Positions 45,267 to 49,693 of a stretch of DNA of 64,000 bases are shown here, piece after piece. The first letter of the stretch is position 1; every line of letters begins with the position of its first letter. Source of the stretch: a bacterium (GTDB taxonomy: Bacteria; Patescibacteriota; Microgenomatia; UBA1406; GWC2-37-13); assembly GCA_021825445.1 (NCBI GenBank), contig JAKAHA010000002.1, positions 50,461 through 114,460 on the forward strand, in the 5' to 3' direction. The notes under the pieces were generated by a model. It made no database searches, was not told the origin of the DNA, and was given only the letters and a program-made list of their open reading frames with translations. The translations under genes were made by a program, and so were the position numbers.

Positions 45267-46286
45267 ATGTCACCATCAGAAAAATTAAATACTAGTGTCG
45301 GTCGACCGGGTGAACCGGAACCTAGAACATTTTCTAGGTTATATCAAACCCTTATTGACCCGGTTAATGAACTTAAATACTTAATGTCTAAATTTAGAGA
45401 TCTGGAAGCTTTATCAAATGATTATAGAAGGACTGTGTTGAGAAGTTTGTGTTCAAAAGACGTTATAACTCAAGCCTTAAAAACTAATCTTCCGATTGAA
45501 GCGGTTATTCCAATGAATTTGGTGACCGATGATAATTCTTCGATCGTGTTTTTAGGAAAAAATAATCACGAATCGCCTTCTCAGGGACGAAATATTAAAG
45601 ATTTAATTGAACATCGAAATAATCATAAAATACCATTGGAAAAAGTCAGGTCAATCCCAAAAGGATTCAATTTAACAAATCAAATTAATGAAAATGATGA
45701 GATAAACTTACTTGCCTTATGGGAACGTTTTGGTTGGAACCGCGTTCAAATCAGAAATTTTATTCAAATGATGAGATCTAATCAAGATGACCTATGGTTT
45801 AGTGGTGTCCGTGATTCAAACTCTAAAAAACTGGTCGCCGCGAGCACTGCTGAAGCAATGCAATTCTCCGGAATTAAATATATTGAAACAACCGAGTATA
45901 GCACACTTGACGGCTATGAAAATCTTGGCTTATGTACTGCCTCTGTTGCCGGTTTGGTAGCTCAAGTTTTAAACGCACAGCATATTTTACCGACGGTCAT
46001 TACGGCCGAATTTAATACTTCATCAACTTCGGCGGCAATCGGTGCTTCTGCTGGGTTTGTAATTCCAAAAACCGACGGTGTTTCACAAATACTTTCTTAT
46101 AATGTAGCGGTTGTCGACGGTGCATCAGCCAATCCGGTTTTTATAAACGATCATCAAACCGATAGGGGAATACCTTTTAGATATTTGAAAGATTTTGCTC
46201 TAGCGGTATTGCCAAGAGAAAATATAGATCGTTTATATTCCCAAGTAGAAATCAAACAAATTATAAATTTATATGACCCACAATGA
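45267..46286 (+). CDS. Possible GNAT-like N-acyltransferase
   Basis: SKKLVAASTAEA; LDGYENLGLCTASVAGLVAQVL; PTVITAEFNTSSTSAAIGASAGF loosely follow the GNAT motif order. Confidence 0.45.
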   Translation: MSPSEKLNTSVGRPGEPEPRTFSRLYQTLIDPVNELKYLMSKFRDLEALSNDYRRTVLRSLCSKDVITQALKTNLPIEAVIPMNLVTDDNSSIVFLGKNNHESPSQGRNIKDLIEHRNNHKIPLEKVRSIPKGFNLTNQINENDEINLLALWERFGWNRVQIRNFIQMMRSNQDDLWFSGVRDSNSKKLVAASTAEAMQFSGIKYIETTEYSTLDGYENLGLCTASVAGLVAQVLNAQHILPTVITAEFNTSSTSAAIGASAGFVIPKTDGVSQILSYNVAVVDGASANPVFINDHQTDRGIPFRYLKDFALAVLPRENIDRLYSQVEIKQIINLYDPQ

Positions 46287-47278
46287 AAATATTATATTCG
46301 CCTACCCATCTCTCTCATGTTCCGGAGTTTGAAATTTTTAATGGACATCCCGATGCCCATGCCGAGGTACCATCAAGAATTGAAAATATTAACAAAAGTT
46401 TAATTAAAAATGGTTTTAAAGTAAATAATTTAACGAAAAAAACTCCAATTTCCTTGATTGTAAAAACTCATAAAAAAGAATATGTTGATTTTATAAAAAA
46501 AGGCTCGGTGTTTTTATATCCATCAGTATTCCCATATAACGATTTAAATCAGGGCAGAAAACTTTCTAATAATTTAGCAAATCATGGGAAATATTCCTTT
46601 GATCTTTATACACCAATGTTAAAAAATATATTTAAAATCGCTCATGAATCATCATCATTAGCGTATGAACTTTCAGAAGAGATTCTTAATAAAAAAATAA
46701 AAGTAGGTTATTCACTCTGTCGTCCTCCAGGACATCATGCTGAAAAAGCTCGAATGGGTGGATATTGTTATTTTAACAACAGCGCTATAGCTGCTCAAAA
46801 TCTCTCTTCAAAAGGTAAAGTCGCCATTCTCGACGTTGATTTCCATCATGGTAATGGTACGCAAAATATTTTTTACGATCGAGGTGATGTCTTGACTATT
46901 TCAATTCATGCCGATCCTAATTGGAAATTTCCTTTTTACACCGGGTTTGCTGATGAAATTGGTCTTTATGAAGGTGAAGGAAAAAATATAAACTTTCCGC
47001 TACCAAAAGGTACCACAAATACCCAATACCAAAGAACTTTGGAAAAAACTTTGAAAAAAATTAAAGATTTCCAACCAAAATATTTAGTTGTTCCCCTAGG
47101 GCTTGATACACATCGTGACGATCCAATTGGAGGCTTTCAATTAACGACTGATTATTATCAAAAAATGGCTAAAACTATTAGTGATTTAAAAATTCCGACT
47201 TTAATTATCCAAGAAGGAGGATATAATACCGCCTTACTTGGAGATAATGTCGTCTCTTTTTTAAAAGGTTTTATATAA
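46283..47278 (+). CDS. Histone deacetylase / acetylpolyamine amidohydrolase family protein
   Basis: RPPGHHAEKARMGGYCYFNNSAIAA; ILDVDFHHGNGTQNIFY; SIHADP; IQEGGYN. Confidence 0.93.
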   Translation: MKILYSPTHLSHVPEFEIFNGHPDAHAEVPSRIENINKSLIKNGFKVNNLTKKTPISLIVKTHKKEYVDFIKKGSVFLYPSVFPYNDLNQGRKLSNNLANHGKYSFDLYTPMLKNIFKIAHESSSLAYELSEEILNKKIKVGYSLCRPPGHHAEKARMGGYCYFNNSAIAAQNLSSKGKVAILDVDFHHGNGTQNIFYDRGDVLTISIHADPNWKFPFYTGFADEIGLYEGEGKNINFPLPKGTTNTQYQRTLEKTLKKIKDFQPKYLVVPLGLDTHRDDPIGGFQLTTDYYQKMAKTISDLKIPTLIIQEGGYNTALLGDNVVSFLKGFI

Positions 47279-47362: not shown

Positions 47363-49693
47363 ATGATTTGGGCAGATAGAGAAGCAAAAAGACTTAAAGA
47401 AAGAAACTTACCCCTTGAATGGGCTGATGACATGAAAACCCCATCAGGGCGCGTTCACGTCGGCTCTCTTCGAGGTGTCATTGTTCACGACCTGATTCAC
47501 AAAGCCCTTAAAAATATTGGCGTAAATACCAAGTTTTCTTATGTCTTCAATAATATGGATCCGATGGATGGAATGCCATCTTACTTGGACGCAAATAAAT
47601 GGGGAAAATATATGGGAATGCCTTTATATAAAATTCCTTCTCCTGAACCGGGATTCAAGTCTTTTGCCGATTATTTTGCTTCAGAATTTATTGAAGTTTT
47701 TAATTCTATAAACTGTAAACCACAAATTATTTGGTCACACGAACTTTACAGATCAGGAAAAATGAATGAAACAATTCGTTTAATATTAGATAAAGCCGAT
47801 ACCGTTCGCGACGTCTACAAAAAAGTTGTCAAAAAAGATCGTCCTCCAACTTGGTTTCCGTATTCTCCAATTTGTGAAAAATGTGGAAAGATCGGAACAA
47901 CCAGTGTTTACAAATGGGATGGAAAATATGTCCACTATCGTTGTGAGCCAAAAATGGTTGAATGGGCCACAGGGTGTGGATACGAAGGAAAAGTTGAGCC
48001 AATAAATGAAAATGGCAAATTGGTTTGGAAATTGGATTGGCCCGCTCATTGGAAAGTAATTGGAGTAACAATTGAATCGTCCGGTAAAGATCACATGTCC
48101 TCAGGTGGATCTTATGATATGGGAATTCATTTCTGTAAGGAAGTATTGGGTACTGTTGCGCCGGACGCCCTTGGTGGCTATGAATGGTTTACAATCGGTG
48201 GCAAAAAAATGTCGTCATCAAAGGGAATTGGTTCTTCCGCTTACGAAGTTTCTCAAATCTTACCCCCAGAACTTTTACGTTTTTTGCTTGTTCGAACGCC
48301 AATTAAGACTCATCTTGATTTTGATCCGGTTGGAGATACGATTCCTAATTTGTTTGATGACTATGATCGTTGCTTGAATTCTTATTATTTAAAATTAGAA
48401 AACAATTTACCAAAAGATAAAGCCGGAGAGGTTGCAGATGATCAAGCCAGAATAATAGAACTTTCAGAAGTAAAACCTTTACCTAAAACTAGACAGTATA
48501 TCCCCAGGTTTAGAACGATTGCCAATTTATTAAAAACAAAAAAAGAAGATATAAATAAATTTTTTGAGACACAAAAAAGATCTTCTCTAACAAATGATGA
48601 AATCAAAATTCTTGATGAACGAATAAAATTCGCAAAAATTTATTTGGAAAAATACAGCCAAGATAAAAATTTGAGTATAGGGGAAAAAATATTTTCCCCA
48701 TCTGAATTGCAAAAAAACTTCTTACTTCAATCGTTTAATCGATTGAAATCTTTGATCAATAAAGATAACAAAGACGAGATTCAACAGACTATTTTTGAGT
48801 GTATTAAAACAACTGGAATAAAACCTAAAGATGCTTTTGAAGCTATTTATCAAACACTGACAGGGAAGCCATTTGGACCAAAAATTGGAGAATTAATTTT
48901 AGACATTGGCTTTGGTAAATCTTTATCGATGTTAAAAGGAAGTAATCAAGATATTGTCAAACAAACAACAAATAAATATACTTATCCCGAGCTTACTGAC
49001 AAAAAAATATTTTTCATCGACTCGACAGTTGCACAAAAATACCCGTCAATCAATATCGGAATTGCTGTTATTAAAAACGTTAATATTAAAAAATCTGATC
49101 CGCGTCTACTTGAAGAAGTCGACCAATTTATTAAATCACAATCAAATTTATCTAATGAAATAATTAGCAGCTATCCTGAAATTCAAACTTACCGAAAACT
49201 TTATAAAGAAATGGGGTTAGATTGGCACTCAAAAAGACCGTCTCCCGAAGCACTACTTCGAAGAATTGCTACCGGTAAAGGACTTTACAACATCAATACA
49301 TGTGTTGATGCATACAATTTAATTGTTATGAAACATCACGTTTCAATTGGAGCATTTGATTACGATAAATTAAGATTCCCAACATTATTAAGATTTCCAA
49401 AAAATAACGAAGAGATATTGCTTCTTGGAGATAAAGTTCCGACCAAATACAAAACAATTGACTTAGCTTATTTTGATCAGGCAGGCGGATATAATATTTA
49501 TTTTAATTATCGCGACGCACAAAGAACCGCTGTAACAGAACAAACAAAAGATATAATTTTGAATATTGATGGAATTTATGATGTCACTAGAGCTCAAGTT
49601 GAACGATCCTTGAAAGAATCAATTGATATTATTACCAAATACTGCGGCGGCACCGTCGAGTTTGCAGGAATCGTTTCAGCCGCGCAAATTTAA
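47363..49693 (+). CDS. lysS: Class I lysyl-tRNA synthetase with fused C-terminal B3/4 domain
   Basis: TPSGRVHVGSLRGV; KMSSSKGIG (KMSKS-like); C-terminal YRKLYKEMGLDWHSKRPSPEALLRRIATGKGLYNINTCVDAYNLIVMKHHVSIGAFDYDKL. Confidence 0.93.
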   Translation: MIWADREAKRLKERNLPLEWADDMKTPSGRVHVGSLRGVIVHDLIHKALKNIGVNTKFSYVFNNMDPMDGMPSYLDANKWGKYMGMPLYKIPSPEPGFKSFADYFASEFIEVFNSINCKPQIIWSHELYRSGKMNETIRLILDKADTVRDVYKKVVKKDRPPTWFPYSPICEKCGKIGTTSVYKWDGKYVHYRCEPKMVEWATGCGYEGKVEPINENGKLVWKLDWPAHWKVIGVTIESSGKDHMSSGGSYDMGIHFCKEVLGTVAPDALGGYEWFTIGGKKMSSSKGIGSSAYEVSQILPPELLRFLLVRTPIKTHLDFDPVGDTIPNLFDDYDRCLNSYYLKLENNLPKDKAGEVADDQARIIELSEVKPLPKTRQYIPRFRTIANLLKTKKEDINKFFETQKRSSLTNDEIKILDERIKFAKIYLEKYSQDKNLSIGEKIFSPSELQKNFLLQSFNRLKSLINKDNKDEIQQTIFECIKTTGIKPKDAFEAIYQTLTGKPFGPKIGELILDIGFGKSLSMLKGSNQDIVKQTTNKYTYPELTDKKIFFIDSTVAQKYPSINIGIAVIKNVNIKKSDPRLLEEVDQFIKSQSNLSNEIISSYPEIQTYRKLYKEMGLDWHSKRPSPEALLRRIATGKGLYNINTCVDAYNLIVMKHHVSIGAFDYDKLRFPTLLRFPKNNEEILLLGDKVPTKYKTIDLAYFDQAGGYNIYFNYRDAQRTAVTEQTKDIILNIDGIYDVTRAQVERSLKESIDIITKYCGGTVEFAGIVSAAQI

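Follow-up and report, generated by a model that had tools for sequence, protein, structure and literature searches.

A CtdA-like B3/4 domain fused to class I and class II lysyl-tRNA synthetases in Patescibacteria

Introduction

What does a B3/4 domain do on a lysyl-tRNA synthetase (LysRS)? The question is raised by one gene in the window, the 64,000-nucleotide stretch of DNA analysed here. LysRS is the one synthetase for which both class I and class II forms exist (PMC7373986). A 2024 review gives no editing domain for it, reviews credit it only with pre-transfer editing at the active site, and another editing review does not mention it. Host-restricted bacteria with small genomes are, moreover, reported to tend to lose editing. 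A preliminary description, made from sequence alone, had read the gene as a class I LysRS of about 500 residues followed by a B3/4 domain of about 220 residues, likened to the editing domain of phenylalanyl-tRNA synthetase (PheRS). It had considered the fusion unknown in model organisms, which agrees with the reviews, and had inferred proofreading or tRNA deacylation in cis.

Results

The LysRS half of the fusion gene

The open reading frame is uninterrupted, with zero internal stop codons, and encodes LysRS and B3/4 in a single continuous frame (Table 1). Residues 1 to 517 matched the class I LysRS family profile (NCBIfam TIGR00467) with an E value of 3.3e-102 and 342.7 bits against a cut-off of 147.55, so that this part of the preliminary description held. 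The catalytic domain was matched in the PDB by P. horikoshii LysRS (1irx, E 1.7e-54), which, like the fusion, comprises catalytic and anticodon domains with the same motifs. This structure, the only one of a class I LysRS matched in the PDB, ends without an editing domain, whereas the fusion adds one past residue ~545. Membership of class I is met by the full-length profile and by both the HIGH-type and KMSKS-type motifs; charging of tRNA-Lys with lysine is inferred, without an assay. The linker between the two halves is predicted to be flexible, with pLDDT values below 50 for residues 529 to 536 in a full-length structure model.

The fused gene was the sole LysRS found in the source genome, which is 97% complete. 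The remaining class II LysRS-like matches in this genome score below the family cut-off. One of them, a 352-aa ORF, is EpmA-like and adjoins an EF-P-like gene, and another, of 621 aa, is presumed to be AspRS in the absence of a domain scan.

Table 1. Features of the LysRS-B3/4 gene (window coordinates unless given as residues)
Feature	Position	Strand	Remarks
LysRS1-B3/4 fusion gene	47363..49693	+	776 aa, ATG to stop
Class I LysRS catalytic domain (tRNA-synt_1f, PF01921)	47366..48472	+	aa 2-370, Pfam E 1.5e-88
HIGH-type motif H32-V-G-S35	47456..47467	+	from translation; H32 and G34 invariant in 58 fusions
Four-Cys insert C171, C174, C194, C205	47873..47977	+	invariant columns in 58-fusion alignment; zinc-ribbon-like, no data on metal binding
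KMSKS-type motif K282-M-S-S-S286	48206..48220	+	K282, M283 and S286 invariant in 58 fusions
LysRS1 anticodon-binding domain (Anticodon_2, PF19269)	48560..48925	+	aa 400-521, Pfam
Inter-domain linker	48926..48997	+	aa 522-545, full-length model
Complete CtdA-like B3/4 domain	48998..49690	+	aa 546-776 (~230 aa), by fold
PF03483 (B3_4) core	aa 610-751	+	E 4e-21, 75.8 bits vs gathering cut-off 29.3
VDAYN motif	49304..49318	+	aa 648-652; conserved B3/4 motif, VDLYN in Arg type
GAFD motif	49349..49360	+	aa 663-666; GGED in Arg type, H265-A-F-D in E. coli PheRS beta
FNYRD motif	49502..49516	+	aa 714-718; Lys-type signature, WNWR(E/Q) in Arg type and CtdA

The C-terminal domain has a CtdA-like fold

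The B3/4 assignment held by profile as well as by fold. The absence of a PF03483 match, which would have refuted it, did not occur, the score lying above the cut-off. The proposed boundary was slightly off: the profile covers only the core of a CtdA-like fold that spans residues ~546 to 776. The domain was modeled with a mean pLDDT of 97.5 from 80 aligned relatives. In a Foldseek search of the PDB, the top two hits were CtdA structures (9f7e and 9mkl; for 9f7e, E 1.4e-14, TM 0.80/0.83 and 16% identity), and PheRS beta subunits ranked behind them with E values of 1e-10 to 1e-7. The closest solved relative is thus CtdA rather than PheRS, which refines the initial label. At the sequence level, the Lys-type domain profile matched both CtdA and PheRS beta (E 1e-7 to 1e-5). 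By profile and predicted fold, we conclude that the domain comprises an entire deacylase fold of the CtdA type, ~230 aa long; enzymatic data on its catalysis are lacking.

Residues that are conserved across B3/4 proteins are present in the alignment (N645, V648, D649, N652, D705 and N715), including D649, N652 and D705, which are common to nearly all members. This was not the case for beta-His265 and beta-Glu334, which we take to be the pocket residues of E. coli PheRS. They align with G663 and N734 and are not conserved; the pocket His is missing from CtdA too. CtdA shares with the LysRS-linked domain the fold over its whole length, a size of ~230 aa, the equivalents of N652, D705 and N715, and the pattern VD-x-YN. 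However, CtdA is a stand-alone protein that acts on tRNA-Arg, whereas the LysRS domain is tethered to its synthetase. Because the CtdA motifs CRRWNWR(Q/E) and GGE(N/D) are absent and replaced by FNYRD and GAFD, we did not class the LysRS domain as CtdA. The PheRS beta editing domain likewise shares PF03483, the fold and a position in cis to a synthetase, but it lies inside the beta subunit of a different synthetase, whereas in the LysRS fusion it forms a separate C-terminal domain. As judged by sequence alignment, the specificity pocket resembles neither that of PheRS nor that of CtdA.

Fusions occur mostly in Microgenomates-group bacteria

A survey of the candidate phyla radiation, which the preliminary description had proposed, revealed many fusions, mostly in Microgenomates-group Patescibacteria. 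Named genomes were scanned by domain alignment with Lys-type patterns as the query, and the best 80 of 183 candidates were kept. Among the 79 resulting loci were 64 class I LysRS fusions, 11 class II LysRS fusions, three archaeal stand-alone proteins and one contig-edge fragment. No synthetase other than LysRS was among them, although a scan of this design does not prove that the domain is exclusive to LysRS. Most of the hosts belonged to the Roizman-, Gottesman-, Levy-, Davies- and Woesebacteria; minor contributors were Dojkabacteria, WWE3, CPR3, Wirth- and Shapirobacteria and a single Anaerolineae. Of the 72 genomes in the family to which the window belongs, 27 gave a match: 23 of them to a class I fusion, three to a class II fusion and one to a distant protein that stands alone. 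In a sample of 379 genomes from the phylum, class I LysRS was found in 69, five of which carried the domain, and B3/4 was attached to class II LysRS in six further genomes. That 64 class I fusions recur in independent assemblies rules out an assembly artefact.

Several candidates were rejected. ORFs of 757 to 795 aa in four genomes (G002, G014, G015 and G016) looked like further fusions through a short match to residues 493 to 572; the two of them that were scanned (L038 and L040) proved to be DUF4012 proteins, matched by chance. L043 is a divergent LysRS1-like protein without B3/4.

The three archaeal stand-alone proteins (L164:4492-5154, L165:4477-5154 and L166:1109-1816) show the Lys-type features VDAYN, AFD and YRD and group with the LysRS-fused domains. 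It is possible that they are trans-acting counterparts.

The domain persists through exchanges of LysRS class

Class I and class II LysRS are not homologous, and a single clade of B3/4 domains is fused to both. The domain thus goes with LysRS function rather than with class I LysRS alone, which had first been taken as its partner. A tree of 83 domains required seven switches of LysRS class, at least five of which were forced by well-supported branches, and a thinned, more careful domain tree required six (bootstrap range, 6 to 6). Constraining either class to a single clade was rejected, with AU P values of 6e-7 for class I rows and 2e-87 for class II rows. Supported nestings included a class II fusion (L114) within class I Gottesmanbacteria and two others (L135/L147) within class I Levybacteria. 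Several subfamilies, with identities of 33 to 88%, are represented among the class II enzymes that carry the domain.

Gene order is informative in this respect. The arrangement greA-[LysRS]-ham1-serS was occupied by LysRS1-B3/4 at L102, by LysRS2-B3/4-HD at L161 and by LysRS1 without the domain at L020. Since either class is found at the same locus, the catalytic half was replaced in place while the B3/4 domain stayed. Chimeric assemblies are excluded by paired recurrences in different genomes (L116/L134, L135/L147, L157/L158 and L178/L179). These findings show that the B3/4 domain was retained across repeated exchanges of LysRS class.

Some fusions carry additional domains. An HD-type domain follows B3/4 in three class II fusions (L158, L159 and L161) and one class I fusion (L120) and occurs on a class II LysRS without B3/4 at L170; it seemingly moves between LysRS classes too. 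It should be noted that this call has Pfam support in L170 and weak support in L158, and rests on sequence similarity for L159, L161 and L120. One 1,119-aa ORF (L168:591-3947, G379) combines class II LysRS, HD, B3/4 and DUF2000, and another (L151:2974-5643) reads LysRS2-B3/4-DUF2000. Fused class II enzymes at L160 and L180 also have classical tRNA_bind domains.

Lys-type and Arg-type domains

The same bacteria also have related B3/4 domains that either precede ArgRS in a single protein or occur as stand-alone proteins. These Arg-type domains mostly display VDLYN, GGED and CRRWNWRE, as in CtdA, whereas the LysRS-linked ones display VDAYN, GAFD and FNYRD. In a joint tree, all 81 Lys-type rows were split from the Arg type (SH-aLRT 97); the Lys side of this tree also takes in the stand-alone proteins from archaea and two long branches of MetRS/TrpRS. 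The ArgRS fusions (L033, L034, L169, L172, L173 and L174) resemble the LysRS fusion in carrying B3/4 in cis on a synthetase for a basic amino acid, but differ in the N-terminal position of the domain, in its mostly CtdA-type motifs and in its separate clade. An N-terminal B3/4 domain on ArgRS was not described in the literature that we searched.

One fusion departs from the Lys-type rule: the class II LysRS at L181:552-2855 (G298) has a B3/4 domain of the Arg type, bearing CRRWNWRE. Other synthetases were also seen with B3/4: a MetRS with the domain at its C terminus (residues 667 to 793 of 812; L175:1746-4181, G310) and a TrpRS preceded in one ORF by two domains of editing type, tRNA_edit (YbaK/ProX family) and B3/4 (L176:166-2424, in G162, a genome that is 68% complete).

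Selection on the domain and its gain and loss

Compared with L088, its closest relative in the named set, the window's gene is 82% identical in the domain and 84% in the synthetase half. For this least saturated pair, dN/dS was ~0.08 and ~0.05, respectively. Synonymous sites were mostly saturated in other pairs, in which amino acid conservation was similar in both halves. The B3/4 domain is under purifying selection.

Its presence is nevertheless labile. Within the family and its neighbors, class I LysRS has gained or lost the domain at least six times, and 10 times in the best tree. Two orthologues from the same genus, with a LysRS 81 to 82% identical to that of the window and the same kind of locus, are cleanly without the domain. 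Such repeated gain and loss implies that the domain is not essential everywhere. A fidelity function needed only in some conditions would fit this pattern, which is an inference and has not been shown.

A tandem duplicated B3/4 was observed on one LysRS1 of 1,109 aa (L081:2690-6016, in the same genome as L150), and leftover B3/4 fragments lie downstream of the gene in two relatives (L083/L098 and L084/L094).

Gene neighborhood

The position directly upstream of LysRS-B3/4 is repeatedly taken by genes of the LysW pathway for lysine and ornithine (lysZ and lysJ), by one for an EgtC-like amidotransferase or by one for an M20 deacylase (L092, L094, L096, L104, L107, L110, L120 and L138; M20 at L118, L135, L141 and others). 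Lysine-pathway neighbors (LysZ, LysJ and M20) are also found at the domain-less locus L048 and, therefore, were not used as evidence. In the window, a 339-aa protein and a histone-deacetylase-family protein are encoded just upstream of the LysRS gene (45267 to 47278). The former had no Pfam or NCBIfam match, and the pair recurs upstream in several relatives (L090, L093, L115, L117 and L124). The lysine 2,3-aminomutase gene ablA is located directly beside LysRS-B3/4 at L095:1458-2825 and near it at L191:1231-2586 (G006), where a weakly AblB-like acetyltransferase is adjacent.

Discussion

We propose that the C-terminal domain is a tethered post-transfer editing domain, an aminoacyl-tRNA deacylase acting in cis on tRNA-Lys. 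We consider this likely, with a probability of roughly 0.7, in the absence of enzymatic data. The fusion itself, the fold, the motifs, purifying selection and the tie to LysRS of either class are shown and support the proposal. Catalysis, action in cis and the identity of tRNA-Lys as the target are inferred; proofreading in cis, as first suggested, remains the best-supported inference, with no data on catalysis or substrate. In this view, LysRS would load tRNA-Lys, sometimes with a near-cognate amino acid; the 3' end of the tRNA would swing on the flexible linker, or rebind, into the CtdA-like pocket; and the wrong ester would be hydrolysed while correct Lys-tRNA is spared.

The amino acid that would be removed is undetermined. 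Arg, Thr and Met are possible candidates, since E. coli LysRS, a class II enzyme, mischarges tRNA-Lys with them and fails to deacylate the products (PMC5370406). A need for editing is plausible, since no LysRS other than the fused one was found in the genome and the E. coli enzyme is unable to deacylate these products. A lysine analogue accepted by both LysRS classes may be a further candidate. Sources differ on ornithine: its mischarging by E. coli LysRS was not seen (PMC5370406), and LysRS2 was found to charge it weakly and LysRS1 not at all (PMC8001834). Because LysRS1 does not charge it, a substrate shared by both classes is more likely another amino acid, and this question stays open.

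Several points count against the proposal. The domain is only 16% identical to CtdA in sequence, lacks the pocket His and Glu of PheRS and is labile. The Arg-type domain on the class II LysRS at L181 weakens a strict rule of domain to tRNA, and the check for exclusive linkage to LysRS covered no more than the 80 best of 183 loci plus the sampled genomes.

Among alternative explanations, a noncatalytic module for tRNA binding or processivity, helping LysRS to hold tRNA-Lys, is unlikely. Classical tRNA_bind additions on some fused class II enzymes (L160 and L180) speak for it, and repeated loss is compatible with an accessory role. However, the whole CtdA-like fold is kept together with D649, N652 and D705, and distinct Lys-type and Arg-type motifs are not predicted by such a role.

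Editing in trans of another misacylated tRNA, such as canavanyl-tRNA-Arg, with LysRS as a mere carrier, also has little in its favor. The closest solved relative, CtdA, is a stand-alone protein that deacylates canavanyl-tRNA-Arg, as shown in vitro and in vivo (PMC10018355), and L181 bears the Arg-type CRRWNWRE motif. Against this, LysRS of one class or the other was the only fusion partner observed for Lys-type domains, and most Arg-type domains were on ArgRS or stood alone. A carrier role also leaves unexplained why the domain follows LysRS through class changes.

Specific hydrolysis of beta-lysyl-tRNA-Lys, protecting cells that make beta-lysine, is more doubtful still. In its support, the EpmA-like gene of the source genome adjoins an EF-P-like gene, and AblA is encoded beside or near LysRS-B3/4 in two relatives. 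However, KamA-family enzymes were found in 4 of 26 domain-bearing genomes of the family versus 13 of the 46 others and not in the source genome, and EpmA-like genes are near universal. Co-occurrence data thus speak against beta-lysine as a general substrate. Finally, a decaying passenger without function, which might be suggested by the partial second B3/4 copy that two relatives have downstream of the gene, is largely refuted by the selection data, with conservation similar to that of the essential synthetase half, and by retention of the domain through class exchanges.

In-cis editing by a B3/4 or CtdA-like domain is already known in kind; here, it would reside on a synthetase for which no editing domain has been described. 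We found no description of a LysRS-B3/4 fusion in the open-access literature searched; subscription papers were outside its scope, and "B3/4" is unsearchable as written. Domain databases probably display the architecture, but no study devoted to it was found. The chief interest is that one proofreading-type domain has stayed in place while the two unrelated LysRS classes were exchanged repeatedly. A bolder reading, toward which we lean only slightly, is that these bacteria have what reviews do not list for LysRS, an editing domain dedicated to it.

If editing in cis is correct, a dedicated domain common to both LysRS forms would close the gap in LysRS editing, and its presence in these bacteria would run against the loss of editing reported for small genomes. 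It would also constitute a natural experiment, as two unrelated catalytic cores would each be found joined to a common proofreading module. Since near-identical relatives differ in having or lacking the domain, and either LysRS class can occupy the same locus, a few purified proteins would suffice to test the question. That the domain was kept while the loading enzyme was replaced suggests that these bacteria may possess a dedicated proofreading step for lysine, undescribed so far.
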